Source of the DNA: a virus
DNA length: 56,450 nt
IMG/VR virus record: IMGVR_UViG_3300035698_012530
Span: 1-56,450 of that record
Strand: one strand, 5' to 3'
Of this stretch, positions 1,036 through 43,630 are shown one piece after another. Numbering within the stretch: the first letter of the stretch is position 1; each line of letters starts with the position of its first letter. Below the pieces are notes generated by a model that worked only from the letters and a program-made list of their open reading frames with translations, searched no databases and was not told the origin of the DNA. The translations under genes were made by a program, and so were the position numbers.

Positions 1036-2031
1036 ATGTTAGACAGAATAAAAAAATATGAAGAAGAATATAATATAAAAGTATTATATCTTATTAAATT
1101 TGGGTCACATTTGTATGGTACTAATACACCAGCAAGTGATACAGATTATAAAGGTATTTTCTTGCCTTCTAAAGAAGATTGTTATTTTAATACCCAATCA
1201 AAGCATATTAGTTATACTTCTGGCAAAAATGATTCTAAAAATGGTGCTGATGATTTTGATTTTGAGATGTGGTCATTACAATATTGGATTAAACTATTAG
1301 AAAAGGGTGATACTAATGCAATGGATTTATTGTATTCATATTCATATATGAGTATAATCGAATATATCGACCCATTAATAAAAACATTTCTTGAAAATCC
1401 TACTAAAATGTTTGATATAGATAAATGCAAAGGATATTCTGGTTATATTAAAGGACAAGTTAAAAAATATGGTATAAAAGGTGAAAGAGTTGGTGTTTTC
1501 AAATATATGACTATAACTCTTGCTGACATTGTAAAGGTATTTAATAGTGATGATAAAGATAAATTAAGTGTATATATTGATTATCTTCTTGCTAATCATT
1601 ATGATTCGTCATATTGTTTTGAAAAAAATATCAATAATGAAAGATGTCTTGTTGTGTGTGGTAAAGTACATCAAGGTAGTATTACTTTAAAAGAATTTTA
1701 TAATCGTATTAAAAAAGAATATGATAAATATGGTGACAGATCCAAACTTGCAGAGAAAAATGAAGGTGTAGATTGGAAAGCAGTCAGTCATGCAATGAGA
1801 GCTGTATATCAAATGAAAGAATTAATACTTACTAATAGAATTCAATTTCCATTAAAAGATTCTGCTGTTCTTACTGATATTAAATTAGGTAAACTGAACT
1901 GGAATGTAGTATCTAAAATGGTATATAATGGTCTTAATGAAATAGATGAAATGATTGATGGATTATCTAATCATAAGTGTAAAAGAAACAATGATTTTTT
2001 GAAAGAATCTATATTAAACTTATATAATTAA
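1036..2031 (+). CDS. Predicted nucleotidyltransferase (COG3541-like)
   Basis: The 331-aa protein carries a polymerase-beta-type nucleotidyltransferase signature near the N terminus: FGSHLYGT at about residues 23-30 followed by SDTDYKGI at about 35-42, i.e. the G-S-x9-13-D-x-D metal-binding arrangement. Such proteins occur in T4-like and other large phages; the substrate is not known, and tRNA or protein nucleotidylation are both possible. The C-terminal two thirds are helical and rich in Lys. AAAGGAT lies 5 nt before the ATG. All Trp codons here are TGG. Confidence 0.8.
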   Translation: MLDRIKKYEEEYNIKVLYLIKFGSHLYGTNTPASDTDYKGIFLPSKEDCYFNTQSKHISYTSGKNDSKNGADDFDFEMWSLQYWIKLLEKGDTNAMDLLYSYSYMSIIEYIDPLIKTFLENPTKMFDIDKCKGYSGYIKGQVKKYGIKGERVGVFKYMTITLADIVKVFNSDDKDKLSVYIDYLLANHYDSSYCFEKNINNERCLVVCGKVHQGSITLKEFYNRIKKEYDKYGDRSKLAEKNEGVDWKAVSHAMRAVYQMKELILTNRIQFPLKDSAVLTDIKLGKLNWNVVSKMVYNGLNEIDEMIDGLSNHKCKRNNDFLKESILNLYN

Positions 2032-2239: not shown

Positions 2240-2316
2240 GCCGCTATAGCTCAGTTGGTTAGAGTTTCTGCCTTGTAAGCAGAGTGTCCTCCGTTCGAAT
2301 CGGAGTGGCGGCTCCA
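2240..2316 (+). tRNA. tRNA-Thr (anticodon TGT)
   Basis: A 77-nt cloverleaf with CCA encoded. The acceptor GCCGCTA pairs with TGGCGGC, the D arm contains AGCTCAGTTGGTTAGAG, the anticodon stem TCTGC/GCAGA carries loop CTTGTAA with anticodon TGT at 2274-2276, and the T arm contains GTTCGAAT. The encoded discriminator base is T (2313). It reads ACA, a codon favoured by the AT-rich genome. Confidence 0.95.
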
Positions 2317-2335
2317 AATATTTCGGATTAATTAA

Positions 2336-2430
2336 GGTAGGAATCCGGTTGGTTTGAGGGGCTAGTCTTGAAAACTAGTAGGGGGTGTTAGTAGCATCCT
2401 TTTAGGGTTCGAATCCCTATCCTACTTCCA
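2336..2430 (+). tRNA. tRNA-Ser (anticodon TGA)
   Basis: A 95-nt class II tRNA with a long variable arm (GGGTG/CATCC stem) and encoded CCA. The acceptor GGTAGGA pairs with TCCTACT (first pair G-T), the anticodon stem is CTAGT/ACTAG, and the loop CTTGAAA holds anticodon TGA at 2369-2371, which reads UCA serine codons; it is not a UGA suppressor (that needs TCA). The discriminator is T at 2427, whereas bacterial tRNA-Ser normally has G73. Confidence 0.92.
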
Positions 2431-2942: not shown

Positions 2943-4007
2943 ATGTTACAGGTTCAAGATTATCTTAAAACACATTCGTTAGAAGACCTTAAAGATGAGT
3001 TTGCTATCAGATATAAGGTTTATAATGATAGAGTGATACTGAAATATGGGGTTGATTCAAAACCTAAATTTCACCCTATTGTTACTGAATGTAGAGGGTT
3101 AATTCTTTCTCTTCCTGATTATGATGTTATGGCAAGAGGTTTTGACAGATTTTTTAATCTTGGTGAAGGTGATGACTCTGAGAATTTTGACTGGAACAAT
3201 TGTTTAACATTCAATAAACTTGATGGGTCTATGTGTAAAGTTTATTATGATGGTAAATTATGGTGTGTATCTACAAATGGAACTGCTTTTGCAGAAGGCG
3301 AAACACCTATGGGCAAAACATATCATGATTTATTTGTTGAAGCTATTGGTGTGGATCTACAGCAAGCTTTTTATTGTGCATCAAAACAGTACACTTACAT
3401 CTTTGAATTGACTTCTCCAGAGAATAGAATTGTTACAAGATATCATGAAACAAAAGCAACTCTGTTAGCAATCAGACACAACAACGGAGAGTATGTTGAT
3501 AATGATGATTATTATGACTTTTCCTTTTCTAAAAAATGTGAGTCTTATAATATCAATGATGTGGATGATATTCTTAAATTCGTTGAAGGAAGAGATTGTA
3601 TGGATGAGGGTGTTGTTTGTTATTGTCCTTATACTCAGGTAAGAATCAAAGTTAAGAACTCTGCTTATGTTGCAATCCATAGATTAAAAGGAGAAGGAGA
3701 AAATAGTATAAAAGGTTTTGTTGAATTGGCTTTTAAACAAGAGTATGTTGAATTTTTACTTTATTTTCCTGAATATACTGATACTATGATGAAATATGTT
3801 AAAGCACATCAATTGTTTTTAAATCAAATTAATGATACATGGAATAAATATAAACATATAGAAGATCAAAAAAAATTTGCTATGAAAATTAAAGATATGT
3901 CTATATCAGGAATATTATTTAGCTTAAAGAAAGGTATTAAACTTGATGATATTATAAAAAAATTTAATATGGATAGAAAAATTAAACATTTAAATAATTT
4001 TATATAA
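2943..4007 (+). CDS. rnlA: RNA ligase 1 (T4 Rnl1-like)
   Basis: 354-aa ATP-dependent RNA ligase that joins 3'-OH and 5'-PO4 RNA ends through a lysyl-adenylate. Nucleotidyltransferase motifs appear in order: motif I KLDGS at about residue 94-98 (nucleophile Lys), motif IIIa YIFELTSPENRIV at about 149-161, motif IV DEGVVCY at about 220, motif V RIKVKNSAYV at about 232-241. Length matches T4 gp63 (374 aa). In T4 it repairs tRNAs cut by host anticodon nucleases. Two tRNA genes lie just upstream and Rnl2-like, HD-Pnk and CCA-adding genes are elsewhere in the window. All Trp codons are TGG. Confidence 0.9.
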   Translation: MLQVQDYLKTHSLEDLKDEFAIRYKVYNDRVILKYGVDSKPKFHPIVTECRGLILSLPDYDVMARGFDRFFNLGEGDDSENFDWNNCLTFNKLDGSMCKVYYDGKLWCVSTNGTAFAEGETPMGKTYHDLFVEAIGVDLQQAFYCASKQYTYIFELTSPENRIVTRYHETKATLLAIRHNNGEYVDNDDYYDFSFSKKCESYNINDVDDILKFVEGRDCMDEGVVCYCPYTQVRIKVKNSAYVAIHRLKGEGENSIKGFVELAFKQEYVEFLLYFPEYTDTMMKYVKAHQLFLNQINDTWNKYKHIEDQKKFAMKIKDMSISGILFSLKKGIKLDDIIKKFNMDRKIKHLNNFI

Positions 4008-11838: not shown

Positions 11839-12066
11839 ATGAAAATTCGTGTTAAAGATATAAGAAACACAGAAATAAGTGATAATCCATTTGATAAAAA
11901 AAGATATGGTAATGTACAAGTATTAGACATTAAAGATGGGTATGTACAATATACTTTTATTGGAGATAAAACTACCATCCAACCTACACCAGAAGATGAC
12001 TTTAAATTTTCAACTTCTATTAAATTTTTTGAAATTGTTTATACAGATATTATAAAAAGGGGATAA
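11839..12066 (+). CDS. Hypothetical protein, 75 aa
   Basis: AAGGGAG precedes the ATG. The product looks beta-rich (MKIRVKDIRNTEI, VQVLDIKDGYVQYTFIGD), possibly a small OB or SH3-like barrel; that is a guess from strand pattern. Followed directly by the RNA ligase 2-like gene. Confidence 0.65.
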   Translation: MKIRVKDIRNTEISDNPFDKKRYGNVQVLDIKDGYVQYTFIGDKTTIQPTPEDDFKFSTSIKFFEIVYTDIIKRG

Positions 12067-12071
12067 TGATA

Positions 12072-13169
12072 ATGGAATTAAATCGTATGACTACAATCGG
12101 TGATTTTAGAAACATAATTAAACATATACAACATTCTACCAGATACACTGGTATGGATGCTGACGGTGATCCTATGTACGATAAAACAGCTAAAATGCCT
12201 GTTATTACAGCTCATGGTACAGTAAAACTTCATGGTACAAATGCTGGTGTGTCTTACCATAAAGGTGAATTGTATGCTCAATCTAAAAAGAACATTATAA
12301 CTCCTGACAAAGATAATGCGGGATTTGCGTCTTTTGTTGAACTCAACAAAAATTTATTTATTACATATATGCATCTTATCTGGAACATGTATGATATTAA
12401 TACTAATGAAAATATAATTACTATAATGGGTGAATGGGCTGGTGGGTCTATACAAAAAAATGTAGCTATTAATGAATTACCTAAACAATTTTACATCTTT
12501 GGTGTAAAAATTAAACCAATTTATGATAAGGTGCTTAGTGATGAAGGTGTTAAACCTGTTATTACAACAAACAATCCTTCTTACTGGTTAGAAGATTTTG
12601 ATATTATGAACCATCAATATATTAATGATAATAATATATATACAGTTGAACAATTTGATACCTTTGATATTGACATTGATTTTAATGAACCTTTGCTGTC
12701 TCAAAATAAAATGATTGCAATGATGGAAGAAGTTGAGAAGGAATGTCCAGTTGGAAAGTTCTTTAATATCAACGGGACTGGTGAAGGAATTGTCTTCTCT
12801 TTTAAATACAAAGGATCTACATACAGGTGGAAAGTTAAAGGTGATAAATATGCTGGTAAAAGCAAAGTCAAAAAACTTAAACCAGTAGATGAAGGTAAGT
12901 TAAGAAAAAAGATGGAAATAGTCAATCAAGTTACTCCTAATTGGAGATTAGTTCAAATGTATGATGAAACCTTTGATGTTATTAATGGTGGAGTAGGTGA
13001 CATCAAAATGACAGGGGATTATCTAAGAGCACTTATCAAAGATGTATGGAAAGAAGAAAATGATATAATTGCTGAAGCAGGGTTGACATCTAAAGATATT
13101 AATAGTAGAATCAGTAAAGTTGGTCGAGAATACTTTATGAATCGTTTAGATGAAGAGGCAGGGCTATAA
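12072..13169 (+). CDS. RNA ligase, Rnl2 family
   Basis: 365 aa. Motif I is VKLHGTNAGV at about residues 55-64 (nucleophile Lys in K-L-H-G-T), followed by AQSKKNIITPDKDN; motif III/IIIa is IMGEWAGGSIQ at about 118-128; motif IV EGIVFSF at about 236; motif V WKVKGDKYAG at about 249. This matches the pfam RNA_ligase (T4 Rnl2/RNA-editing ligase) group, which seals nicks in duplex RNA. ATG at 12072 is preceded by AAAAGGGGATA; an alternative start is 12066. With Rnl1 (2943) it gives the phage two sealing enzymes. All Trp codons are TGG. Confidence 0.85.
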   Translation: MELNRMTTIGDFRNIIKHIQHSTRYTGMDADGDPMYDKTAKMPVITAHGTVKLHGTNAGVSYHKGELYAQSKKNIITPDKDNAGFASFVELNKNLFITYMHLIWNMYDINTNENIITIMGEWAGGSIQKNVAINELPKQFYIFGVKIKPIYDKVLSDEGVKPVITTNNPSYWLEDFDIMNHQYINDNNIYTVEQFDTFDIDIDFNEPLLSQNKMIAMMEEVEKECPVGKFFNINGTGEGIVFSFKYKGSTYRWKVKGDKYAGKSKVKKLKPVDEGKLRKKMEIVNQVTPNWRLVQMYDETFDVINGGVGDIKMTGDYLRALIKDVWKEENDIIAEAGLTSKDINSRISKVGREYFMNRLDEEAGL

Positions 13170-17914: not shown

Positions 17915-18361
17915 ATGGAACATATAATTGATGAATTTCAAGATGAATATAGATTTTTAAGCAATTTTTATGTTTCTCCATTTATGTTTGGAAACATAAA
18001 AATTGAAACTACAGAGCATTTATATCAATCATTAAAAACTGATGATAAAACCGAAAAATATAATATATTAAAGGCAGAAACACCCGGAAAAGCAAAAAGG
18101 ATGGGAAGCAAGGTTATTTTAAGAGATAATTGGGATAAAAATAAATATGAAATTATGTTAATATGTCTTAAAATAAAATTTTTCAATAAAAAATTAATGA
18201 AAATGTTAATAAATACAGGTGATTCAGCTTTAATAGAAGGAAATTACTGGCATGATAATTACTGGGGTAATTGTAAATGTAAAAAATGTGTTAACATTAC
18301 AGGTAAAAATACATTAGGATTATTATTAATGCACATAAGGAGAACAAATGAAATTAAATAG
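17915..18361 (+). CDS. NADAR/YbiA family protein
   Basis: 148 aa. FQDEYRFLSNFYVSPF at about residues 8-23, TTEHLYQSLKT at about 32-42, GNYWHDNYWGNC near 108-119 and a C-terminal LGLLLMHIR are the conserved blocks of the NADAR (YbiA-like) N-glycosidase family. Members act on ADP-ribose or riboflavin intermediates, and some counteract ADP-ribosylation-based defence, so an anti-defence function is conceivable. Ribosome site is weak. Its end overlaps the next gene. Confidence 0.85.
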   Translation: MEHIIDEFQDEYRFLSNFYVSPFMFGNIKIETTEHLYQSLKTDDKTEKYNILKAETPGKAKRMGSKVILRDNWDKNKYEIMLICLKIKFFNKKLMKMLINTGDSALIEGNYWHDNYWGNCKCKKCVNITGKNTLGLLLMHIRRTNEIK

Positions 18362-18539
18362 TTTTAAAACAAATCAAATAGTTACACCTGCAAAAGTTAA
18401 AAAGGTAAAGAGACTTACAAAAATTAAGAAAGTTAAATGAATTCCAGAAGATATTTATACGGAAGACGAAGAAGATGATGAAAATGGATATCAAGTTACA
18501 TGAGAAAATGAACCATTAGGTAAAAGAGTAAAAGAATAA
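18348..18539 (+). CDS. Hypothetical basic-acidic protein, 63 aa
   Basis: Overlaps the NADAR gene by 14 nt; AAGGAG lies inside NADAR. The 63-aa protein has a Lys-rich N half (AKVKKVKRLTKIKKVK-W) and an acidic C half (EDIYTEDEEDDENG), with two TGA-Trp. It ends 7 nt before the tmRNA. Unknown. Confidence 0.6.
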
Positions 18540-18546
18540 ATAATAT

Positions 18547-18831
18547 GGGGGTGAAAAGGTATCGACAGTGATAGTTGGAGATATGTATTCAAGGAGTGGT
18601 AAAAGAGTTTATACACTTTAAATATAATTCTAAAAAGAAGTTGACGATTTTGAATATTCTGTAGCAGCGTAGCTGTTACCCTCTTTGTAAGTGATGGTTA
18701 TAAGTTATAAAAGGGGCATACCATAACCAAAATGTAGTAAATGTAGTATGTTAGACCTGTAGTATAACCTTGTAGAAGATATGTGTTTGTAGTGTTACTG
18801 GACACGGGTTCGACTCCCGTCACCTCCTCCA
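18547..18831 (+). ncRNA. ssrA: tmRNA (SsrA), one-piece
   Basis: 285 nt with CCA encoded. The acceptor GGGGGTG pairs with CACCTCC, including a G3-U70 wobble, the alanine identity element; GTATCGACAG is the D-like region; the T arm is ACGGG-TTCGACT-CCCGT. The tag frame at about 18634-18672 encodes KEVDDFEYSVAA and ends at TAG; the terminal AA is what ClpXP-type proteases recognise. Hairpins such as GGTTAT/ATAACC lie where pseudoknots are expected. It should rescue stalled ribosomes and tag their products. U at the discriminator position differs from the usual A. Phage-borne tmRNA genes are known but rare. Confidence 0.93.
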
Positions 18832-18845
18832 AAAAATGGAAACAT

Positions 18846-19031
18846 ATGAAAAATAAAACTGATGTTTGGATTTGTGAAAGTTGTATAAGAAAAATTGGTA
18901 TTGTTCCATTTATTCTTAGAAACAATAAAAAATGTAAAGATTGTGGTAAAATTACAGGATGCACAACAATGAAAGGAAGTCGTTATTTTGAAATGAAAGA
19001 AGATGGGATAATAAATGGGCAGATCAGCTAA
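18846..19031 (+). CDS. Small zinc-ribbon protein, 61 aa
   Basis: Begins 15 nt after the tmRNA CCA end. Contains VWICESCIRKIG and KKCKDCGKITGC, two CxxC knuckles forming a zinc ribbon. It overlaps the PDDEXK nuclease gene by 17 nt. No clear ribosome site, and possibly expressed from the tmRNA transcript by read-through. Confidence 0.6.
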   Translation: MKNKTDVWICESCIRKIGIVPFILRNNKKCKDCGKITGCTTMKGSRYFEMKEDGIINGQIS

Positions 19032-19545
19032 AGGTGGTCAATGAGAAAGAGATGTATCACGTTTTTTTACTAAATGATTGACAGGTCAGGATAAAGAATT
19101 ATACTTCTGACGTAGCCCAGGCTCAGGCAGTGTTGCACAAATTAATATGGGTAATAAAGCTATATCAGGAGATATAATTGCCTTAAAACAAGAAGCCACC
19201 TTATTAATAGACAGATATTCAATCGAGTGCAAAAATGGATATAAAAACGCATCATTTGATAAACATCTTAAATCAAACAAATCAGACCCATTGAAAGCTT
19301 TTTGAATTCAATGTGTAGATGATGCTGTAAAAGCAGAGAAACTTCCTTTATTGATATATAAAAAACTTGGAATGAGTACTCCTTGATGTGGGTTGTCACC
19401 AGAATTTTATAATCAAATATCAAAACACTTGAAAGACAAAAGATTTATACATTTAAAATGGGATATAGATTACCCTGACATTTATTTTTATGAATTCTAT
19501 GACTTTTGACGTATCATTACACCTGAAATCATTAAATCATTGTAA
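19015..19545 (+). CDS. PDDEXK nuclease, phage Holliday-junction-resolvase-like
   Basis: 176 aa, containing six TGA-Trp codons; the residues around them match a common phage family (KGGQ-W-ERDVSRFFTK-W-L; KELYF-W-RSPGSGSVA; KAF-W-IQC). Catalytic elements: ERD near residue 11, GDI near 60, IECKNG near 78-83 (E-x-K), the PD-(D/E)xK core. Members are annotated as putative resolvases or endonucleases. This gene gives the most direct in-window support for TGA=Trp. Ends 6 bp before the next promoter. Confidence 0.85.
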
Positions 19546-28170: not shown

Positions 28171-29928
28171 ATGTTTAAAAATATCTATTATGATACATAT
28201 AAAAGTGTCATGCATTTATGGTATACTGCTAATGGTGTTAATAGATACAGAGCTGATAATTGGACTCCTTATGTATACAAAAAAGACCCAGAAGGTGATA
28301 TAAAAACCATTGATGGTCTTAAAGTATCTAAAATGTATTTTAATTCTTATTCATCATATAAAGAATATCAACAGAACAATAAAGATTTATATGAAAATAA
28401 CTGCAAACCTGAAATCCAATATCTAGCAGAAAAATATTATGATGTTATAGATGAAGACATTATTCCACCAGCTCTTAAAATATACTCTATAGATATTGAA
28501 GTACAACCTATCAATAATCCGGGTGTATTTCCTTCTCCACTTATAGCAGAAGAACCTATAACAATGATAAGCATATATGATTGGTTAGATAATCATGTAT
28601 ATTCTTTTGGGTTACATGAATATGATAATAGTGTCAATGATGACAAACCATTTAAAGTTACCTACATTAATTGTGGTGATGAAAAATCATTATTAAGAAA
28701 ATTTTTTAGTTTTACACACAAAAATGCTCCAGATGTGTATACAGGGTGGAACATATCGTTAAACAAGAAGATGTCCGTATCAGGGTTTGATTTTCCTTAT
28801 ATTATTAATAGAAGTAAAAACCTCTTTGAAGAGGATTTGTACTTACTCTTATCTCCTATTAAAAAGGTAAGAGCATGGAAATCAAATGAAGATACAGGTG
28901 TATCCATTTCTGGAGTATCAATAATAGATTATCAATGTATATATAAATGGTTTACAAGAAATAATTTAGAAAAATATACATTAGATTATGTGTGTAAATT
29001 TGAGCTTAATGAGGTTAAGCTTGAGTATAAAGGGTCTCTAGCTGAATTATATAATAATGACTGGCAAAAGTATGTTGATTATAATATACGTGATGTTGAG
29101 TTAATAAAATTATTGGATGATAAACTTGAATATATTAATCTAGCACAAAGTTTATCTTTACTTACTAGAGCCCCAATGGAATCTTATATTGCAATGACAG
29201 CTTTATTAGAAGGCAAGTTATTAACACATTTCAGAAGAGAAGGATTATGTGCTCCTATATTTGAAGGTGGAACTCAGCATGGGTTTCCCGCTGCTTATGT
29301 CAAAGAACCTCATGTAGGTTTATGGGATTGGATTTCAAGTATTGATATTGCGTCAAGTTACCCTACTGCTATAATTACATTGAATATGAGTGTAGAGACA
29401 TATCTTGGTAGAATTCAAACACTTACAGAAGATCATATTATTTTATATACTAAAAGAAGAGAATTTCCACCATTTACATTAAAAAAGAAAATTGGATCAG
29501 TTGATTTTAAAGGTGATAAATTAATATCATTCAATAAAATGTTAGATAAAGGATTAATTGCTATTGCTCCTTGTGGTAGTTGTTTTAAGACATCTAAAGA
29601 AGGTGTAATTGCTTATGTAGAAAGAGAAATGTTTATTAAAAGAAAACAAATTAAAACTGTTATGAAATCATTGTATGATGATGACAGTAAAAAAGATGAG
29701 GTTAAAAGATTATTTGCATTTCAATGGGCATTGAAAATTCTCTTAAATAGTATGTTTGGTATAATGGCTGTACCTTATTCACGTTACTTTCAAATAAATA
29801 TAGCTGAAGCAATTACAGCTTGTGGTAGACATAATGTTAAGCAGGGAGAACTATTTACAAATGAAATTCTTAATGATATAATGAATAAAGATTTAGTTAA
29901 AATTATTGGAGAAATAAAGGAGAAATAA
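28171..29928 (+). CDS. 43A: DNA polymerase family B, N-terminal part (gp43A-like)
   Basis: 585 aa. Exonuclease motifs: IYSIDIEVQP (ExoI), YTGWN...SGFDFPYIINR (ExoII), YVDYNIRDVELI (ExoIII). Polymerase motif A is SIDIASSYPTAI at about residue 388, motif B WALKILLNSMFGIM at about 525. The frame ends after EIKEK, before motif C (DTDS), which is in the separate gene at 31187-32053. Both parts must assemble to make an active polymerase with 3'-5' proofreading. T4-related phages with gene 43 split at this place are known. All ten or so Trp codons are TGG. Confidence 0.92.
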   Translation: MFKNIYYDTYKSVMHLWYTANGVNRYRADNWTPYVYKKDPEGDIKTIDGLKVSKMYFNSYSSYKEYQQNNKDLYENNCKPEIQYLAEKYYDVIDEDIIPPALKIYSIDIEVQPINNPGVFPSPLIAEEPITMISIYDWLDNHVYSFGLHEYDNSVNDDKPFKVTYINCGDEKSLLRKFFSFTHKNAPDVYTGWNISLNKKMSVSGFDFPYIINRSKNLFEEDLYLLLSPIKKVRAWKSNEDTGVSISGVSIIDYQCIYKWFTRNNLEKYTLDYVCKFELNEVKLEYKGSLAELYNNDWQKYVDYNIRDVELIKLLDDKLEYINLAQSLSLLTRAPMESYIAMTALLEGKLLTHFRREGLCAPIFEGGTQHGFPAAYVKEPHVGLWDWISSIDIASSYPTAIITLNMSVETYLGRIQTLTEDHIILYTKRREFPPFTLKKKIGSVDFKGDKLISFNKMLDKGLIAIAPCGSCFKTSKEGVIAYVEREMFIKRKQIKTVMKSLYDDDSKKDEVKRLFAFQWALKILLNSMFGIMAVPYSRYFQINIAEAITACGRHNVKQGELFTNEILNDIMNKDLVKIIGEIKEK

Positions 29929-30994: not shown

Positions 30995-31194
30995 TGTCAC
31001 GAATAGAAGAGGCAAAAAGAGGAAAACAAGAATTAAGACAAGAGGCTATAGACCTTATAAATGGTTTATTACATTATCCAAAAGATGTTGTTAATCCTAA
31101 ATGTGAAAGATTAGTTGATTGTGTTATATGCGCATCAACATTGGAAAATGTAATTATACAAAATCAAGCCTTTAAAGATACGAACAATGTTTAA
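30994..31194 (+). CDS. Hypothetical protein, 66 aa
   Basis: TAATG coupling. Helical charged N half (EEAKRGKQELRQEAIDLI) and two Cys near the C terminus (CERLVDCVICAS). It overlaps the polymerase C-terminal gene by 8 nt, so polymerase translation may be coupled to it. Confidence 0.55.
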   Translation: MSRIEEAKRGKQELRQEAIDLINGLLHYPKDVVNPKCERLVDCVICASTLENVIIQNQAFKDTNNV

Positions 31195-32053
31195 AGATTA
31201 TGTTGCATATATTGATACTGATTCTTGTTATATCAAGATAGGTCAATACCTTGATGATATGGGTGTAAAGGATAAATTTGAAACTATGCCACAAAAAGAA
31301 CAAGTGGAATATGTTAAACGAATTAATGATATTATTGCGAGTTATGTTAATAACAAATGCTATAATATAACACAAAAACAACATTACAATTCTCAGGTAA
31401 ATGATTTTAAAATAGTATTTGAACCTGAAAAGATTGCATTAACAGGTATATTCTCTACCAAAAAACGCTATGCTACATGGACATTATTGGATGATGGTAA
31501 ATGGGTAGACAAATTATCTATAACTGGACTTGAAGTGATAAGGTCTGACTCGCCTGAAATGGTTAAACCAAAAATTCTTGTAATACTTGAAATGATATTA
31601 AAGAAGCATGCTGATGATGAAATTAGAAATACAATCAATAAACATAAAACCGATTTATACAAATCATCACCAGAGGAAATATCAACTAACAAGGGTATTA
31701 ATAAACTTAAAAAATATCTTAATAATGACTATACATGGAAGAAAAAATGCCCACATCAACTAAAAGGTGTAGCAAATTTTAGTTTTTTCTTAAACAAGTT
31801 TAATTTAAAAGATTTATATGATATTCCATTGGAAGGAAATAAGGCAAAAATAGTGTATCTAAAAAAGAATAAATTTAACAAAACATCCTTGTCTTTCTAC
31901 AAGTGACCTAAAGAATTTGATAAATTAGGTATACAGGTTGATTATAAAAAAATGATATATGATAATTATACTAAAAAGGTTGAGGGTTTATTGAAGATAA
32001 TAAATAAATTATCATTATTAGAACAACAGAATTTAATTGACAGTTTCTTTTAA
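31187..32053 (+). CDS. 43B: DNA polymerase family B, C-terminal part (gp43B-like)
   Basis: 288 aa, starting MFKDYVAYIDTDSCYIKIG: the catalytic motif C (Y-x-D-T-D-S) lies at residues 9-13. Then GIFSTKKRYATWTL (KKRY DNA-contact motif) and the thumb domain. One TGA at 31904 (SFYK-W-PKEFDK) must be Trp for the protein to reach its normal end at ...LIDSFF. No good ribosome site precedes the ATG; it overlaps the gene before. It pairs with the 28171-29928 product. Confidence 0.9.
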
Positions 32054-32069
32054 ATTTGTTATTATTCTT

Positions 32070-32077
32070 TATAAATA
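32070..32077 (+). promoter_or_regulatory. T4-late-type promoter box TATAAATA
   Basis: TATAAATA lies 19 nt before the ATG of the CCA-adding enzyme gene, with AAAGGAT between. Same spacing as at 4003 and 8981. Confidence 0.55.
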
Positions 32078-32096
32078 TATACTAAAGGATAAAATA

Positions 32097-33530
32097 ATGA
32101 AATTTACACAATATATAAAAGAAAACAAAGAAGAACTTAAAAGGTGGAATCAATACCTTAAAAGCAATAAAATGCTCAATGCTTCTATTAAAATAATGAA
32201 AAAGATTGAAAAAGCTGGGTTTAAATCTTGGATTGTTGGTGGTACTGTAAGGGACATCATCTTAGGTTTCAGTCCTAAAGATGTTGATTTAGCAACTACA
32301 ATGCCTATTGAAAAACTTGAAACATCTTTTAAAAAGGTATATGATATAGGTAAATCAAGAGATTTTGGAATTGTGGTTGTTAAACAGGATGGGTATGATT
32401 TTGAAGTAGCACAACTAAGAAACGATGGAAGTTACACAAATGGTAGAAAACCTGACTCTGTTAGTTTTAATGTTAGTCTTGACGATGATCTTTCTAGAAG
32501 AGATTTAACTATTAATGCAATGGCTATTAAATCTGATGGAAGTATTGTAGATAAATTTAATGGTAAAAAAGACATTCTAAATAAAATTATTAGAACTGTT
32601 GGTAATCCTTTTGATAGATTTGAGGAAGATCATTTAAGAATGTTGAGAGCTATCAGATTTTCAAGTAAATTAGGTTTTAAACTTGATAAAGATACAGTTG
32701 ATGCTATCAAGAGCAAAAAAGCTCATATTAAAAAAATATCAATTGAAAGAGTAAAAGAAGAATTAGTTAAAATGGCATCACAAGCTGGTGATAAATTTGC
32801 TAATGCTATCATTGCTCTTGATGATGTTGGTATACTTGAGATTATCTTACCTGAAATTACTAAATTGAAAGATTTTCCAGAAGAGAGACAATTTCATCCT
32901 GAATCTTATATTGATGATAAGAGTTCAGTATTTAACCATGTAATGGCTGCATTGAGAAAAAATAAATTAACAGATCCAATTATTAATCTATCTATATTGT
33001 TTCATGATATAGGAAAGGGTACTACATACAAAAATATTGATGGTAAACATACTTTTCATAAACATGCCAGTGAAGCTAAAGATTTAATTGATAATGTAGC
33101 AAAAAAATTGAAGTTGTCAAATAAAGAAAAAAATGCTATAATGTTTAGTGCAGTGAATCACATGAAATTTCATAGAGGAATAGAAATGAAAGCAAGCAAA
33201 ATCACTAAGCTTGTATCAGACGAGAACTGGAATGTGTTGAAAGCAGTGTCTCTATGTGATGATTCTTGTAGAACAGGATTATTTGACAAGAAAAGATTCA
33301 ATGATATTATCAATAAGATGGAAGCTATATCTAAAAAATGGTCTGATAAGATTACACAAAGCAGTCTAAAGATTATTGATGGTAAAAGAGTCATGAAATT
33401 AACAGGTAGGAGATCAGGTAAATCAATAGGTGAAATTATCGGTAAAGTAACTGGTTGGGTTGTTGATGATGGAAATAAAATACCTATTAATGATCTAATA
33501 ATGAAGGCTCACAGAGAATTAAAGGAATAA
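32097..33530 (+). CDS. cca: CCA-adding tRNA nucleotidyltransferase with HD domain
   Basis: 477 aa; ATG 32097 follows AAAGGAT and a TATAAATA box, while an in-frame start at 32037 lies inside the polymerase gene. Class II nucleotidyltransferase motifs: IVGGTVRDIILG at about residue 40, DVDLAT at about 57 (two catalytic Asp), RRDLTINAMAI at about 136, then the NTP-selecting EDHLRMLRAIRF. The C-terminal half holds an HD domain with ILFHDIGKGTTY at about 300. It repairs or completes tRNA 3' ends; here both phage tRNAs encode CCA, so repair of damaged tRNAs is the likelier job. TGG only. Confidence 0.9.
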   Translation: MKFTQYIKENKEELKRWNQYLKSNKMLNASIKIMKKIEKAGFKSWIVGGTVRDIILGFSPKDVDLATTMPIEKLETSFKKVYDIGKSRDFGIVVVKQDGYDFEVAQLRNDGSYTNGRKPDSVSFNVSLDDDLSRRDLTINAMAIKSDGSIVDKFNGKKDILNKIIRTVGNPFDRFEEDHLRMLRAIRFSSKLGFKLDKDTVDAIKSKKAHIKKISIERVKEELVKMASQAGDKFANAIIALDDVGILEIILPEITKLKDFPEERQFHPESYIDDKSSVFNHVMAALRKNKLTDPIINLSILFHDIGKGTTYKNIDGKHTFHKHASEAKDLIDNVAKKLKLSNKEKNAIMFSAVNHMKFHRGIEMKASKITKLVSDENWNVLKAVSLCDDSCRTGLFDKKRFNDIINKMEAISKKWSDKITQSSLKIIDGKRVMKLTGRRSGKSIGEIIGKVTGWVVDDGNKIPINDLIMKAHRELKE

Positions 33531-34989: not shown

Positions 34990-35769
34990 TTATATCTCCT
35001 TTAAATATGATAATAAACCCTTTTCTGTTTTAAATCCTAGCATTTTTTCTGCTTCAATTGGATCAGCTACATTACCTTTAACACCAACATTAACATTTTT
35101 CTTAAATAATACACCTGCAGAATCTATAAACATTGCTAAATCATATATACTTACTGGAATACCCGTACCTATATCCAATATCATATTACTTTTTTCTTTA
35201 AGTTGTATGGATAAATGTATTGCTTTACATACATCATCAACATGAATAAAATCTCTGATCTGTGTTCCATTACCATTTACATATAAAGGTAAATCATTTT
35301 TTGATGCATTAATAAAATTTGATACAACACTTGTTTTCGTTTCAAGATAATTTAATCCACCATACACATTAGACAATCTTAATATACACACATTATCATT
35401 ATTATCATTCATTAAAAATTGCTCGCCTATCATTTTAGTGAAACTATATGTATTTCCACCATCTTTTGCCGCTTGTGAAGATGCAAAGGTTACTGGTATA
35501 TTATAAACAGTTGACATCATCCATATATTATTAAGTGTTAATACATTATCTGTAATGGTTTGTTTTTTGTCCTCTTCACAAGATTGTATACCTGATATAG
35601 CTGCTAAATGAACAACATGTTTTATACCTCTTAACTCATTTGTTTTAATAGATGAAATTGGTTTATCTATTTTTCTATCAATCTCAACAATATCATATGT
35701 ATCACCATACAATTTAATAAAATTTTGTCCAATATATCCTGAACTTCCTGTTAGCATTATTTTCTTCAT
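34990..35769 (-). CDS. NAD-dependent sugar epimerase/dehydratase (SDR)
   Basis: 259 aa, extended SDR. Rossmann motif TGSSGYIGQNFI at about residues 7-18, VVHLAAISG at about 52, catalytic YSFTK (YxxxK) at about 108-112, then LRLSNVYGG and RDFIHVDDVCKAI typical of UDP-glucose 4-epimerase relatives. Shorter than GalE (338 aa). Probably makes a sugar nucleotide for the neighbouring glycosyltransferases. Exact substrate cannot be told. Confidence 0.8.
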   Translation of the reverse strand: MKKIMLTGSSGYIGQNFIKLYGDTYDIVEIDRKIDKPISSIKTNELRGIKHVVHLAAISGIQSCEEDKKQTITDNVLTLNNIWMMSTVYNIPVTFASSQAAKDGGNTYSFTKMIGEQFLMNDNNDNVCILRLSNVYGGLNYLETKTSVVSNFINASKNDLPLYVNGNGTQIRDFIHVDDVCKAIHLSIQLKEKSNMILDIGTGIPVSIYDLAMFIDSAGVLFKKNVNVGVKGNVADPIEAEKMLGFKTEKGLLSYLKEI

Positions 35770-35996
35770 TTAGTATCCTCTGTATAACATATTGATCTTA
35801 TTGGTATTGTTATGATATAATCAACTTCATCTATTATAACTATTGATCCTTTATAATTCCGTGCAATTAAATTGTTAATATCATCTACTGGTTTTTTTGT
35901 TATATGTGTATCATGAACACCAACAAAATGATGGAATATATTTACATCTTTTTTAATAATTTTTATTTCATTTCCATTAGTTAGGTGAATTTTCAT
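35766..35996 (-). CDS. Hypothetical protein, 76 aa
   Basis: Overlaps the epimerase start by 4 nt; TAAAGGAG upstream. Beta-rich, with DVNIFHHFVGVHDTHI and a hydrophobic SIVIIDEVDYIITIPI. Unknown. Confidence 0.6.
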   Translation of the reverse strand: MKIHLTNGNEIKIIKKDVNIFHHFVGVHDTHITKKPVDDINNLIARNYKGSIVIIDEVDYIITIPIRSICYTEDTK

Positions 35997-35997
35997 T

Positions 35998-36210
35998 TTA
36001 AAACTCCTTTATTATTTTAATGTCCATTCTTTTCAGTTCGCTGCGTACCCATGTTTCGTTGTCATTTCTGATTATGCGCCCTGTCCTGTAACTGATAGCA
36101 GTAACTTTTTTAGCATGCCCTTTTAAATTTACTTTAGGATCAAGATAAATTAAAATAACTCCGTTTTTTTGTGCTGTTTGCTCTTCTTTATTAGATACTG
36201 AATTTGGCAT
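35998..36210 (-). CDS. Hypothetical protein, 70 aa
   Basis: Preceded by an excellent AAGGAGG site. Basic protein (DPKVNLKGHAKKVTAISY, RTGRIIRNDNETWVRSEL). Unknown function. Confidence 0.6.
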   Translation of the reverse strand: MPNSVSNKEEQTAQKNGVILIYLDPKVNLKGHAKKVTAISYRTGRIIRNDNETWVRSELKRMDIKIIKEF

Positions 36211-36260
36211 TTTTGACCTCCTTAAAAGTCTTGAATAATAAAAGATTCACTGTTTATCAT

Positions 36261-36902
36261 TTAATAAAAGTCCTTATATTTAACCTTTGGGTTTCTCTTC
36301 TCAAACACCCAAAAATAACTGTGAAACTTCCTACAGTGTTGTTGATTCTTATGTCTCCCACCAATAATCCTGCTTTTAGCTAATAATACAAATAAATCCT
36401 TTGGATAAAAACCAATATCATAAGCTAGATTCATTATAATATTATAACTAAAATAGTTCTTTCCACCGCTTACCTTATCTTGACACTTGAATATTAATAC
36501 ACCATTTTTGTTCAAAAGTCTATAGAATTCTTTTAAAGATTCTTTATAAAATTCATGTAATAGTGTTTCATTCTTAAAATATCCGAATCTTCTTGCTATA
36601 ATACTACTATTTTTATTATCTGTTTCTAAGCTAGGACCACTTGAGGAAAGAAATGGAGGGTCAAACATAAGACAATTAATGCTATTATCCTTTAATGGCA
36701 AATGTCTACAATCTGCTTGAACAACATCTGGTACAACAGGTTTAATATCAAATTTCAGTTTAGGTTGATCATATACATTCTTATAGAACACACCCTTAGA
36801 GTACGTAGGATCACAATCTATAAATCCTTGAGGAACATGTAATTTAAGTATATCTTGTATAATTACTTCTTGATTATAATCTATTGATTTTATTACATTC
36901 AT
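36261..36902 (-). CDS. DNA methyltransferase-like protein
   Basis: 213 aa. FIDCDPTYSKG near residue 27, CLMFDPPFLSS (DPPF, motif IV) at about 77, and FKCQDKVSGGKN further on fit SAM-dependent N4/N6 DNA or nucleotide methyltransferases. A promoter at 36909-36937 ends 6 nt before the ATG, so the message may be leaderless. The second DPP(F/Y) methyltransferase in the window after 13992. Confidence 0.75.
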   Translation of the reverse strand: MNVIKSIDYNQEVIIQDILKLHVPQGFIDCDPTYSKGVFYKNVYDQPKLKFDIKPVVPDVVQADCRHLPLKDNSINCLMFDPPFLSSSGPSLETDNKNSSIIARRFGYFKNETLLHEFYKESLKEFYRLLNKNGVLIFKCQDKVSGGKNYFSYNIIMNLAYDIGFYPKDLFVLLAKSRIIGGRHKNQQHCRKFHSYFWVFEKRNPKVKYKDFY

Positions 36903-36908
36903 TAACAA

Positions 36909-36937
36909 AGTATACTACATTTATATTACCTTGACAA
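36909..36937 (-). promoter_or_regulatory. Minus-strand sigma70-like promoter
   Basis: On the minus strand TTGTCA (36937-36932), 17-bp spacer ending GTAG, TATACT (36914-36909). The transcript would begin at or next to the ATG at 36902, giving a leaderless methyltransferase message. Confidence 0.6.
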
Positions 36938-37882
36938 GATGTCATTTTTTAATATAGGTAATAATTGTTTTCCTTCAAAGTATCTAATAATATTTTCAAC
37001 ACGTTGTTTTGTTGAATGATGTTTTTGACAAAAATCAAACCCATCTTGTCTTATTTTCATAGCCGCTTTTTCATTGCTATAATAATGATTGAATTTATTA
37101 ACTAAATCGGGCGCATCATTTGTTTTATAACTTATATAATGTTTTTTATCTTCAAAGAACATATCAATACTAGGATGTTTATCATGAAAATATAAAGCAC
37201 CAGCACCAATATATTGAAACGGTCTAACATCCTGATATCCTTTTATATTTTGACCCATTTGTACACCTAATACACTTTTAGCAGTAGATGACAATTCGGC
37301 TGTTTGAAATCGCGTATTTCCTGTTTCCTTTGTGGGAAAAGTTTTAATATTAATAGTTTTCAATCCATTAATGAATTTTTTTCTTTGTTGGTGATGTGTT
37401 GAATTGTCTAATCCACCTGTAAAAGCCATATTACATTCATATCTTTTATCATAATTAGCTAATTCTTTTTGATATAAACACATATAAGGTCAATGTATTG
37501 TTGGTATTTTTCAATATCTTTCAAATTCAGGTCTCATATCATTATTAACTAAAGCAAGATCAACAAAATCTGTTATAGGTTTTGTATATCTAGGAATAAC
37601 TCTAGCATCACCCATATGATATATTACTCTAATTCCTGTCTTTCTAAGACCTCTTAACATATTTAATATGTCCTGTCTTATTGGACCAAAAATACAATGA
37701 CATACTATAAAATGTGGTTTAAAAAATTGTATTTCTGTTTTAATTTCTGCTGATTTTCTATTCTGTAATTCTATAGTTTTAGCTCATGCACCATTTCTAA
37801 TAGCCCCTTCTAATACACCGTAATTAAAATAGCTATAATAATCCCTTATATTTCCTAATATCACAAATCTATATTGTTTCAT
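36926..37882 (-). CDS. Glycosyltransferase (GT-B, CgeB-like)
   Basis: 318 aa with three TGA-Trp (NGA-W-AKTIE, FERY-W-KIP, TIH-W-PYM). GGAG precedes ATG. N domain opens RFVILGNIRDYYSYF and has FKPHFIVCHCIFGP; the C domain has MAFTGGLDNSTHHQQR, VLGVQMGQNIKGYQDVRPF and YIGAGALYFHDKH, the nucleotide-sugar-binding region of spore-maturation CgeB-type glycosyltransferases. Part of the sugar cluster. Confidence 0.8.
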
Positions 37883-37891
37883 ACATACTCC

Positions 37892-38713
37892 TTATGGTTT
37901 TCATTTCATATTTCGAAAATTATAATCATTTATAGGTGTTGGCATAGGAGGAATTTTCAATTTACCTTTATATCCTTCTCTTCTAGATTGACATCTTCCA
38001 AGATTATCCATATAAAATCCATTATCTAATTTATCAAATTCTTCTTGAGTTAAATTGCCACCATTTTTTATTAACATTTCTTCAATTTTTCAACTACCTA
38101 AAAGAAATGTTTTAGTTTCTTTTAGCACTCAGTCAGCATCAGGATTTTTAACACCTTTTCTCAATTTATCTTGAAATCTTCAATGGTAATCACCTCTGCT
38201 TGATTTTTCCCATTTTCCTTTAATATAAGACATTCTTCACATCGCTGGTGGAAATCCTCAATATGGCTGAGTAACAAGATTTAAACCCTCACGAATTATC
38301 ATTTTTTTCATGAAGTTTGGTCTTTTTCTCATTAAAGGTCGCTTTGCAAATGTTATTTGATTAACATCATTACTATTTTCAAAAATATCGTATAATTTAT
38401 TTAAATCAATGTCTTTTATTAATCTATAATCATCTTCAAGATTCAATATAAATGGTGTATTGGTTTGATTAAGTAATCAATCTAATGATAAAAATTGTCC
38501 TATAGGTGGATCATCGACCTTTATAACATCATAAATACCAACATCATTTATATACTTTATACTTTCATCAGAACATTTTTTATCTAATACATCTTCATGT
38601 ATTATTCATCTTAATTCACCATCAAATTTTAAATGTTTTAATAATGCTTCTGTAGATAATTTTAAAAATTGTGGTGCCGATGCTGATGTTCTTATTATAT
38701 CAATTTTTCTCAT
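37892..38713 (-). CDS. Glycosyltransferase (GT-A type)
   Basis: 273 aa with eight TGA-Trp and one TGG, so invisible with a standard code. N terminus IDIIRTSASAPQFLKLS, then FILNLEDDYRLI (likely DxD-type metal site) and QPY-W-GFPPAM-W-RM. GT-A relatives use the acidic pair to bind nucleotide-sugar with a divalent metal. The ATG overlaps the stop of the methyltransferase upstream (TAATG). Confidence 0.75.
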
Positions 38714-39270
38714 TATTCTACCTTTTTAAGAATTGTTAGTCCATGTTGGTACTCTATATGATCATGAATTACTCACTCTGGATGAATTTTTAAAAAATCT
38801 TCTATTGCTGTTAATAAACCCGGTCCTGTATTTCTTTGATCAGATCTACCAAATGTTTCAGTATCATGAAACATCATATATTTTTTAACCTTACTATGAT
38901 GTAATTTTAATTCTTTCATAAGATGTGCATATTCATGTAAAGAATCAATAAATAATAAATCTGTATTTTCCATCACAATATCTAAGCTATTATCTTTTAT
39001 GCTTTTAAATTCAGTTATACCTTTCATTGCTTGTTTTATTTTATTCACTTCAATTCCTGGATTGATATCATATGTAGTCATTTTTTTAGGCTTACCCATT
39101 AAAAATGCAATAGTTGTATGACCTAGACCAGTACCAATTTCTGTTACAATATCAACCTTTTCAGCATACTCTTTTAATGTATGTAAATGCTCGCATGTAT
39201 TTTTATGATTTTTTGTTCTTTGTTTACCTCTACAATCTCTTATATTATATTCATTGATTATGTATTTCAT
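38713..39270 (-). CDS. Class I SAM-dependent methyltransferase
   Basis: 185 aa with one TGA-Trp (KIHPE-W-VIHDH). VTEIGTGLGHTTIAFL at about residues 42-57 is the SAM-binding loop; DLLFIDSLHEYAHLMKEL corresponds to the acidic DSxH motif of Methyltransf_24/CmcI-like enzymes, followed by MMFHDTETFG. Sugar or small-molecule O-methylation is likely from context. Confidence 0.8.
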
Positions 39271-39271
39271 A

Positions 39272-40225
39272 TTACTCCTTTAATAATTTTTTATCTACTA
39301 TTTTATGTATTAATGATTTTCTTTCCGCGTATGGTTGATTATCATAATTTTTATGTAAGAAAGCATCTAATTCATTTGTAGTTAAATTAACAGAATAATA
39401 TCCTACATATCAATCTTTAGGTGATGCGGATGAACCTAATCTACCATAATTACCATTTTTAACAAAACCATATGTTCTTACTTTTTCTTGTTCTCTTGAT
39501 ATTCTTACAGACGAATAACCAATATGTATAGCATATCCGTCTCTATATGTGTTGAAATTACATGTTTTGTACCCTTTACCAAATGCATCATTTGTTCAGT
39601 TATTATTTCCTCATGCTCTATTTGCTCATTTCTTTAATCCATATTCAGTCCAACTCTTCATATTACATAATATTAAACTCGCATGAGGTGTTCCACCAGA
39701 TATAAGACCAGCAACTTTATGGGAAAAATCAAATGTTTTAGTTTGTATATCTATTCCATTCAATTGTCCTGCACATTGACCAACAGCAACTATTTTATCA
39801 TCTAATTCCATGCATTTTATCATTTGTGGTATTAATGTTTTTGCTTTTGGTAGAAACATTGTATCAGAATCAATCACTAAAGCATAATCAGTCGTTACTT
39901 GATTTAATCCTAAATTTATTGATTCTCCATGCCCTATACTTACATTAGTCTCTTTTCCTAATGCTTTTGAAATACCATCTTTTCCTCTGCTATATTTATT
40001 ATAATACGAGTATTGAGCTGGATCTCCTGATTTAATTACTCTCACTTTAGGATAATAATCATTTAAATGTTTTAAAAAATCTATTGTTTTTCTTTCATTA
40101 GAGCAATCATCTACTAAAATATATTCTTTATATTGATCTTCTGGTATATATTTTAATACTGCTTCTATACTTAATCTATCCATTTTATAATTATTATGGA
40201 TTGCACTTATTATTGTTGTGTTCAT
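39272..40225 (-). CDS. Glycosyltransferase family 2
   Basis: 317 aa with four TGA-Trp. ISAIHNNYKMDRLSIEAVL and EYILVDDCSN (first Asp pair) at the N terminus, then DYALVIDSDTMFLP (DSD metal motif) and KVAGLISGGTPHASLILC. Classic GT2 GT-A layout. TAATG overlap with the gene upstream. Confidence 0.85.
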
Positions 40226-41106
40226 TATTCTCCTTTTAATATGCTATTAAACATATTTCTATAATTTTCTGCTTGGATTCTTCAGGTCCAATTTTCTTCA
40301 ATTTCTTTTCTCGCTTTACATCCCATTTTTTTACAGGTTTCTCTATTATTTTTTAATCAAATTATTTTTTCTACATAACTTTCAATATTTCTGTCTACAA
40401 TAAATCCGTTTATATTATTGTATAGTTCAGGAGCATTACCTATTTTATTACTAATAAAAGTTCTACCAGATGACGCTGCTTCTAATAACTGATTAGGTGT
40501 TCCATCCATATCACTAGCTACAATAATACAATCAACATCATTATAAAAATTATGAATATTTTGATGTTTAATAACATTTTTACTTGAAAATTTACAAGTT
40601 TGTGCTTTTAATTTTACACCTGCCTTTTTACATGCAGGTACGATAAATTGTTGATATCCTTTTCTAGTGGTATTTTTACCAACATAACCAACCGTGAATT
40701 CTTTTGAAATATCTCTTTCTTTAAATGAGAATAATTTTTCATCTACTCCATTAGGAACATAGAATACTTTTTTCTTTAAAAGTTTTTCGAGTTCTTTTTG
40801 TAATAATACACTATTAGCGTGATGATAATCAGTTTCTTTTAGAAATTTCAAATAATTTTTCATGTTAGAATATGTATGAGAGGTAGCACCTGTAATCTTT
40901 TGTCTTCTTTTTGCGTTAAAACGCTTTACATGAGGACAATCGAATGAAAAATACAAGTCAAACTTTTCATTTTCTTTAAATGTTTTTGGTTTTTGAACAT
41001 ACCTAATTTGAATGTTAAATTCATCTGATAAATATCTTTTAATTTGTTTAGCTTTTATATCTCAGGCTCAATCTATTACATCTACAAGTAATAAAACACT
41101 TTTCAT
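40225..41106 (-). CDS. Glycosyltransferase family 4
   Basis: 293 aa with TGA-Trp in VID-W-A-W-DIKAK, EKII-W-LK and WT-W-RIQ. VFYVPNGVDEKLFSF, TVGYVGKNTTRKGYQQFI, IIVASDMDGTPNQLLEAASSG and GNAPELYNNINGFIVD are the GT4 donor-site blocks (E-x7-E type). It is a paralogue of the gene at 42475-43422, sharing the W-A-W-DIK start and YxHANS-x-LL. Confidence 0.88.
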
Positions 41107-41107
41107 A

Positions 41108-41737
41108 TTATTTTACCACCTTAAATACTATTCTTGGACTTCTATCATCTGTAGTTGTTAGTACTTTCCAATTCCATTTTCTATCATTCATGTATTTTAT
41201 AATTTCTTTAGCATGTTGACTTTTAATACCCTCTTTTCCAACATTATTAGTTTCTAAATAACAAACCTTCCATCTTATGCCATCTAGTAATGTAAATAAT
41301 TTACCTTTAACATGTTTAAATAAAGATAAAGCAAAAACAATATCAATAGGTTCATCAAAATTAAAATTTATTCCACTTATCATTGGGGCTGTTTTTGTAA
41401 TATCACCTCTAACATAATTAATATCAAATCTATTAGATTTAGCTAATTCCTTAGCACATTCTATATAATCCTTTTCATAATCAATTCCCATTATTTTGCT
41501 AGCTCCTCTGTTATGACATTCACAACAGATAGCACCAAGACAACATCCTATATCTAATACACTTAAACCTTTCAAATCATTTGATATACTCATTTGATCC
41601 ATTCTATATAACGTGTTTCTTGATCCATCAACATATTCACCTCTAAGATAATATGATTGATAATTTTCTTTTCTTTTTTTATGCGGAAACTGTGATAATT
41701 TTTTAATTTTTTCTTTTAACTGTTCAACTTCTTTCAT
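41108..41737 (-). CDS. Class I SAM-dependent methyltransferase
   Basis: 209 aa. LSVLDIGCCLGAICCECHN at about residues 58-76 is motif I, then GIDYEKDYIECAKELA and FALSLFKHVK. Downstream ETNNVGKEGIKSQHAK may contact the acceptor. Substrate unknown, probably a sugar or lipid made by neighbours. All Trp codons are TGG. Confidence 0.82.
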   Translation of the reverse strand: MKEVEQLKEKIKKLSQFPHKKRKENYQSYYLRGEYVDGSRNTLYRMDQMSISNDLKGLSVLDIGCCLGAICCECHNRGASKIMGIDYEKDYIECAKELAKSNRFDINYVRGDITKTAPMISGINFNFDEPIDIVFALSLFKHVKGKLFTLLDGIRWKVCYLETNNVGKEGIKSQHAKEIIKYMNDRKWNWKVLTTTDDRSPRIVFKVVK

Positions 41738-42399: not shown

Positions 42400-42427
42400 T
42401 GCAACTCCTTTCAAATAAATCTATTTG

Positions 42428-42472
42428 TAGTTTTCCTTCATTATTCAAAAACGATAAAATGAAGGAAAACTA
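42428..42472. terminator. Perfect 15-bp hairpin between genes
   Basis: TAGTTTTCCTTCATT pairs with AATGAAGGAAAACTA around a 15-nt loop, between the stop of the 42475-43422 gene and the start of the 41734-42399 gene. T run is weak on the minus side, so it may attenuate or process the transcript instead of ending it fully. Confidence 0.6.
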
Positions 42473-42474
42473 TT

Positions 42475-43619: not shown

Positions 43620-43630
43620 AATATTTCTCC

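Follow-up and report, generated by a model that had tools for sequence, protein, structure and literature searches.

A one-piece tmRNA gene with a uridine discriminator in a fragment of a T4-like phage that most likely reads UGA as tryptophan

Background

What would a phage gain from a tmRNA gene (ssrA) of its own when its protein genes carry in-frame TGA codons? The question is raised by a locus on a 56,450-base IMG/VR virus contig classed as linear (record IMGVR_UViG_3300035698_012530; the whole 56,450-base stretch that was analysed is called the window below). Phage tmRNAs were counted in 402 of 18,146 genomes (~2%) by one survey (PMC9004378), a curated tmRNA database lists 79 unique bacteriophage sequences among 97,179 (PMC11915505), and huge phages are described as carrying both tmRNA and SmpB (PMC7162821).

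Methods

The gene, its structure and frame, G3-U70, U73 and the phage context were all established computationally. The tmRNA was searched for using Infernal (Rfam 15, family RF00023) and ARAGORN. Genes of the window were chosen under table 4, the longest ORF first, on a preset strand (plus before ~34.5 kb, minus after). Alignment columns at TGA codons were counted inside the best PDB alignments only, and TGA codons outside them were left out.

For the comparison of viral tmRNAs, A73 was taken as a usual and not a strictly defining feature. The 5'-motif sample was drawn from 57 fetched loci, 22 of which were kept as one-piece tmRNAs; the 35 left out were permuted (7) or truncated, lacked a tag, went unrecognised by ARAGORN, or were no tmRNA at all. 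The resume-codon sample comprised 40 distinct one-piece viral tmRNAs, with ARAGORN starts, from the loci fetched for the comparison. Fetched loci are given by labels of the form L012 where they need to be told apart.

Results

Gene and secondary structure

On the plus strand, Infernal matched the full length of RF00023 (model positions 1-374 of 374) to exactly 18547-18831, with E 4.7e-37 and 97.9 bits where the gathering score is 47, and ARAGORN returned the same two ends. The complete one-piece tmRNA read by a preliminary description of this DNA from its letters was thereby recovered by both programs. The gene is 285 nt long and its tRNA-like domain is complete (7-bp acceptor with G3-U70, T arm and CCA). 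The G3-U70 pair, the T arm and the discriminator U in place of A, all of which had been named beforehand, were borne out by the pairs and letters listed in Table 1.

Table 1. Features of the tmRNA gene and of other genes in the window
Feature	Positions	Strand	Evidence or remark
RlaP RNA-repair nucleotidyltransferase	1036..2031	+	PF10127 1.4e-17
tRNA-Thr(TGT) 2240-2316, tRNA-Ser(TGA) 2336-2430	2240..2430	+	ARAGORN; only tRNAs found
T4 Rnl1-type RNA ligase	2943..4007	+	PF09511 2.1e-17; TIGR02308 below cut-off
Second RNA ligase	12066..13169	+	phrog_548 7.2e-44, PF09414 1e-10
NADAR-domain protein, upstream of tmRNA	17915..18361	+	PF08719 1.6e-23
63-aa ORF, 2 in-frame TGA, ends 7 nt before tmRNA	18348..18539	+	no family match
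Complete one-piece tmRNA gene (ssrA), CCA encoded	18547..18831	+	RF00023 and ARAGORN
5' acceptor strand GGGGGTG, with G3 of G3-U70	18547..18553	+	pairs with 18821-18827, 7/7
Pseudoknot PK1: 18594-18598/18614-18618, 18604-18609/18626-18631	18594..18631	+	pairs 5/5, 6/6
Probable tag frame DDFEYSVAA then TAG, first codon GAC 18643	18643..18672	+	Infernal register, PK1 spacing, resume-codon context
Hairpin H5, contains tag end and stop codon	18661..18679	+	pairs 8/8
Pseudoknot PK2: 18679-18686/18709-18716, 18696-18701/18723-18728	18679..18728	+	pairs 7/8, 6/6
T arm	18804..18820	+	stem pairs 5/5
3' acceptor strand CACCTCC, discriminator U73 (18828), encoded CCA	18821..18831	+	sequence, pairing
Phage PDDEXK / RusA-like nuclease, 6 in-frame TGA	19015..19545	+	183 nt downstream of tmRNA
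CCA-adding tRNA nucleotidyltransferase-like protein	32037..33530	+	PF01743 1.2e-31

In the helix-by-helix check, which confirms the structure and is no blind prediction because the helices were chosen by eye before they were pair-checked, H2 paired at 6/6 positions proximally and 5/5 distally. PK2 and the 3' strand of H2 are only 39 nt apart, so short a stretch that PK3 and PK4 have probably been lost or reduced; the typical number of tmRNA pseudoknots is four (PMC11915505). H5 doubled as a terminator-like hairpin in a terminator scan. The plain minimum free energy of the tmRNA was ordinary (z -1.08, 25 of 200 shuffles as good), and promoter-like sites near the gene occurred at chance level (12 found, 9.1 expected, sd 3.5).

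Tag reading frame

The tag frame has PK1 upstream, an end of the Ala-Ala type (VAA) and its stop inside H5. Tags of tmRNAs typically have a hydrophobic end of the Ala-Ala type. The preliminary description had given the tag as KEVDDFEYSVAA, starting at KEV; its frame and its VAA-TAG end stood, but its start was replaced by GAC at 18643, which is probably the resume codon, with DDFEYSVAA as the tag. Infernal aligned the consensus resume codon of RF00023 to this GAC, which sits 11 nt past the end of PK1, and in E. coli tmRNA the resume codon lies 12 nt downstream of PK1 (PMC2481249). Among the in-frame codons AAA, GAA, GTT and GAC, only GAC has the context of the viral resume-codon sample, in which all 40 tmRNAs have G as first base, a pyrimidine (T or C) at -1 and A at -4, a pattern that depends partly on ARAGORN, which may build some of it in, and that includes one doubtful start (L159). 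AAA, GAA and GTT are each preceded by A, AAA also lacks the initial G, and the 11-nt spacing from PK1 is unique to GAC; KEV is thus probably a spacer outside the tag. ARAGORN itself proposed the tag GAYHNQNVVNVVC, which falls after H5 and inside PK2, is at odds with the Infernal alignment, the distance from PK1 and the viral resume-codon context, and is probably wrong.

Within the 40 viral tmRNAs the resume codon is GAC in 5, and the tag ends in VAA in 6 and in LAA in 19. At -5 the phage tmRNA has A, where the sample has T (34/40) or C (6/40); the equivalent change in E. coli tmRNA, U85A, raises reading in the -1 frame (PMC2481249). The UAG tag stop is also found at 6 of 43 other one-piece viral tmRNA loci and, judged by that count, is nothing special. 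No IMG/VR contig contained the exact tag when it was back-translated.

Discriminator and alanine charging

U73 deviates from the RF00023 consensus, and all 22 one-piece viral tmRNA loci sampled by the 5' motif (19 distinct) carry A73. A U73 pattern with the fixed 3' end GTTCGANTCNNNNCACCTCC matched four contigs, none with a full-length tmRNA (L013 and L024 are tag-less, L015 is a cut copy of that in L024, and L083 is a tRNA-Gly). The A73 pattern with the fixed 3' end GTTCGANTCNNNNCACCTCC matched at least 120 contigs, and ARAGORN called a tmRNA at 69 of the 121 A73-pattern places among the matches listed (19 one-piece, 50 permuted); the ARAGORN listing of 3'-end-pattern places also included the window itself (L001). 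From these counts U73 is rare in one-piece tmRNA, a rarity established for viral contigs only. The acceptor letters in the viral comparison show U70.

The bacterial alanine identity elements are A73, G2-C71, G3-U70 and G4-C69 (PMC9976931), and the acceptor stem of the phage tmRNA has three of these four (G2-C71, G3-U70 and G4-C69). According to PMC6451123, A73U in E. coli tRNA-Ala modulates alanylation without blocking it, and U73 abolishes alanylation by human mitochondrial AlaRS. Because the E. coli reaction was only modulated and the other three determinants are present, U73 probably weakens alanylation by bacterial AlaRS without preventing it; with another AlaRS it could lower alanylation.

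Phage context and reading of UGA

The contig carries T4-like replication genes (gp32-like protein, family-B polymerase, DnaB-like helicase, primase, UvsX and RNase H) and, on this gene content, is part (56 kb) of the genome of a T4-like phage. The family-B DNA polymerase is apparently split into ORFs at 28171-29928 (585 aa) and 31187-32053 (288 aa), with several small ORFs in the interval.

The 104 ORFs of the table-4 gene set, which surely include some false small ones (e.g., 18783-19031, overlapping the tmRNA), contain 105 in-frame TGA and 177 TGG codons. They stop at TAA (96) or TAG (8), TGA stops being excluded by the use of table 4. When four proteins were aligned to their best solved relatives and read by eye, 4 of the 12 TGA columns held Trp and none held Gly. 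The Trp columns came from the methyltransferase (2/5, the others Tyr, Lys and Ile) and RNase H (2/5, the others Val, Phe and Glu), and the single columns of UvsX and UDP-glucose dehydrogenase were both non-Trp. On this count of Trp against Gly, UGA is most likely read as Trp by the phage. The placing of the tmRNA in a UGA-recoding phage, already made in the preliminary description, agrees with the 105 in-frame TGA codons, these Trp columns and the recoded ORFs on both sides of the gene.

The plus strand has 38 TGA to 132 TGG, the minus strand 67 to 45 (Fisher p 3.5e-10). The TGA-poor plus strand has the polymerase (Trp codons 10 TGG, 0 TGA), the helicase (one in-frame TGA) and gp32. Trp codon choice also differs from gene to gene, the gene at 37892-38713 having 1 TGG and 8 TGA where the polymerase has TGG only. 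Avoidance of TGA by early genes was considered and rejected, as RNase H, UvsX and primase sit on the TGA-rich strand. Because these minus-strand replication-type genes also use TGA (5, 2 and 1 in-frame codons, respectively), no conclusion on timing was drawn.

ARAGORN found no UGA-reading tRNA-Trp on the 56-kb fragment, and the remaining genome may encode one. Family searches of the fragment likewise returned no RF1-type factor, no TrpRS/TyrRS-type synthetase and no SmpB, any of which the phage may still have. Some code-4 phages are reported to encode RF1, a suppressor tRNA-Trp(UCA) and TrpRS (PMC10746230).

Neighbouring and repair genes

The tmRNA is tied to recoded phage DNA by the in-frame TGA codons of the adjoining 63-aa ORF. 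The NADAR-domain protein scored above the cut-off of the NCBIfam riboflavin-intermediate N-glycosidase model and below that of the NADAR anti-phage model. A Tad3-type Thoeris inhibitor (Tad3-like anti-Thoeris) was observed at 51214-51972 (PF25185, 5.3e-32), and it and the NADAR protein are likely counter-defence genes. For the CCA-adding-like protein the best NCBIfam model was the CCA enzyme, at 250 bits and below the cut-off of 290. Taken together, the repair and counter-defence genes look like a kit that keeps translation and infection running under attack, and the tmRNA fits such a kit.

Epimerase, glycosyltransferase and methyltransferase genes occupy a minus-strand block at 34990-44764, and a UDP-glucose dehydrogenase lies at 51987-52844; these perhaps serve surface or DNA glycosylation.

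Searches for relatives

A megablast comparison of 10 kb of the contig with phages gave no match. Relatives of the family-B polymerase in IMG/VR had 26-30% identity, and ARAGORN found no tmRNA at their 10 loci; for the 395-aa protein at 14928 and for UvsX no relatives were found. When the tmRNA was compared with phages by blastn, only 30-33 nt of its 3' end were matched, in three records. A 27-nt pattern of the 3' end had no match in GTDB, searched over genomes from 84,980 species of bacteria and archaea. The 5'-end pattern occurred in the GTDB genomes at one place (L082), where ARAGORN called no tmRNA and the following 600 nt lack a tmRNA T arm.

Tag-less tmRNA-like RNAs in other viral contigs

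Other viral contigs carry tag-less tmRNA-like RNAs in which the acceptor and D-loop region are joined straight to the T arm. These were observed at L013:13959-14041, L024:3176-3258 (-) and L015:1-79 (cut), and further at L026, L030, L036, L037, L039, L042, L054, L062, L069, L081, L102, L115, L120, L143 and L197. Scanning the fetched loci by pattern distinguished 15 forms, 73-130 nt long without CCA; A73 is present in 13 of them and U73 in 2. RF00023 exceeded its gathering score in both L013 and L024, and did so in 12 of another 14 contigs with tag-less RNAs (the exceptions were L036 and L037; L030 was outside this set). The curated database lists only nine sequences as 'standard, no CDS', phage DS6A being a known case (PMC11915505), and the tag-less RNAs may form a broad family of phage tmRNA decoys. 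A Pistol ribozyme was observed in all three U73 tag-less loci (L013:9872-9957; L015:739-815; L024:2440-2516 (-)), which amount to at most two independent cases because the L015 copy is identical to part of that of L024.

Discussion

Role of the phage tmRNA

It is quite likely that the gene is a functional phage ssrA that takes part in ordinary trans-translation with host AlaRS and SmpB, alongside phage RNA repair. This reading is favoured because the tag, H5, PK1 and the alanine determinants are intact. The tmRNA would be transcribed from the plus-strand gene block of the phage. Host AlaRS would recognise G3-U70 and attach alanine, host SmpB would bind the RNA, and the tmRNA would then move into ribosomes stranded where an mRNA is broken or runs out without a stop codon. 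Translation would resume at or near GAC 18643, add Ala-DDFEYSVAA and stop at UAG, leaving a product whose -VAA end would suit host ClpXP-type proteases. The likely benefit would be a supply of free ribosomes in the late stage of infection or when host nucleases cleave mRNA and tRNA, and the tmRNA would work together with the RNA ligases, RlaP and the CCA-adding enzyme of the same phage.

The preliminary description had offered another purpose, rescue of ribosomes stalled at UGA at a stage when this codon is not yet decoded as Trp. With RF2 present, UGA terminates translation and there is no stall; a helper of the code switch would thus act where RF2 is limiting and the UGA-reading tRNA scarce, clearing pauses at in-frame UGA while its own UAG needs RF1 only. 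Such a role is in keeping with the use of TGA for Trp (105 TGA in the gene set, with its Trp columns), with the UAG stop of the tag, and with TGA codons in RNase H (5), UvsX (2), helicase (1) and primase (1), which make early UGA pauses conceivable. Recoded E. coli bears on it in both directions (PMC6207430): tmRNA does act at an unassigned stop codon, but its rescue at unassigned UAG impaired viruses and plasmids with genes ending in that codon, and deletion of tmRNA restored them. The polymerase (10 TGG, 0 TGA) and the TGA-poor plus strand as a whole also count against this role, as does the UAG stop in 6 of 43 other viral loci; the UGA-reading tRNA, RF1 and TrpRS were not found, on a fragment that cannot exclude them. 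We regard it as unlikely. The claim as originally worded is possible but unsupported by these data, and PMC6207430 argues against a benefit. A version in which the tmRNA serves as quality control of the code switch, with an end that needs RF1 only and a U73 that lowers charging so that UGA decoding wins first, would be the least probable of the readings considered. The tagging of host proteins, also suggested beforehand, is published speculation for another phage (PMC9004378).

U73 itself invites a different thought, that a poorly charged RNA ties up SmpB and blocks the host tmRNA, a role that has been put forward for the DS6A RNA, which lacks a tag. A tag-less RNA of the tRNA-like domain strongly inhibits tmRNA whether chargeable or not (PMC4131195), and U73, rare in full-length tmRNA, is carried by two viral RNAs without a tag, those of L013 and L024 (and by that of L015, cut and identical to that of L024). 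A decoy would have no need, however, of the full pseudoknotted mRNA part and open VAA-TAG tag that are kept here, and U73 is tolerated by E. coli AlaRS (PMC6451123). U73 is also no mark of decoys, because 13 of the 15 distinct tag-less forms keep A73, and a decoy role is very unlikely. No more credible is a host gene recently captured, or mis-assembled into the contig, without a role in the phage. Capture from a host or prophage has been suggested for the Melnitz tmRNA (PMC9004378), and G+C is 0.37 in the tmRNA against 0.27 in the window, although a higher G+C would be expected of any structured RNA. Against it, the tmRNA has recoded ORFs as neighbours, one ending 7 nt before it and one starting 183 nt after it, phage records match only ~33 nt of the 3' end (3 records), and the sole place with the 5' pattern in GTDB has no tmRNA. 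Identity to a host gene, named beforehand as a sign of contamination, was not seen with the 27-nt 3'-end pattern, and because of its 0 GTDB matches and the recoded flanking ORFs contamination appears unlikely. Ordinary trans-translation is therefore the reading that we retain.

Comparison with known systems

A phage-encoded tmRNA is a kind of gene already known, and U73 makes this one, judged by the viral comparison, mildly unusual. In the parts of the phage tmRNA literature that were consulted, no description was found of a tmRNA combined with UGA recoding, or of U73, and neither is claimed to be unpublished. The locus adds a tmRNA to a UGA-recoding T4-like phage as a well-formed, modestly unusual example, and offers a natural U73 case for probing the dependence of trans-translation on A73. 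If rescue at UGA were true, the virus would bring its own rescue system for a code change.

With the bacterial one-piece tmRNA (RF00023) the phage gene shares the G3-U70 acceptor, the D-loop region GG..TCGAC, the T arm, H2, PK1, the tag, H5 with the stop, PK2 and an encoded CCA. It differs in having U73 and not A73, a length of 285 nt, A at -5 of the tag, and PK3 and PK4 that look lost or shrunken. The tmRNA gene is likewise phage-borne in mycobacteriophages Bxz1 and Wildcat, Bacillus phage G and Methylophilales phage Melnitz (PMC4131195, PMC9004378); the Melnitz tmRNA is two-piece and described as riboswitch-controlled (PMC9004378), whereas that of the window is one-piece.

The only other U73 tmRNA among 43 one-piece viral loci is that of L012 (IMGVR_UViG_3300010885_020237), a locus retrieved by a U73 pattern. 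It too is full-length, with resume codon GAC and a tag ending in VAA, but it is 387 nt long, with a 27-residue tag and the acceptor GGGGATG/CATCTCC. Open-frame cover of the L012 contig (5435 bases) went from 0.56 to 0.54 with TGA read through and to 0.74 with TAG read through, and its phage may use a TAG-recoded code. The tag-less DS6A-type RNA shares the tmRNA acceptor, D-loop region and T arm and has no mRNA part, whereas the tmRNA of the window keeps its tag and pseudoknots intact.
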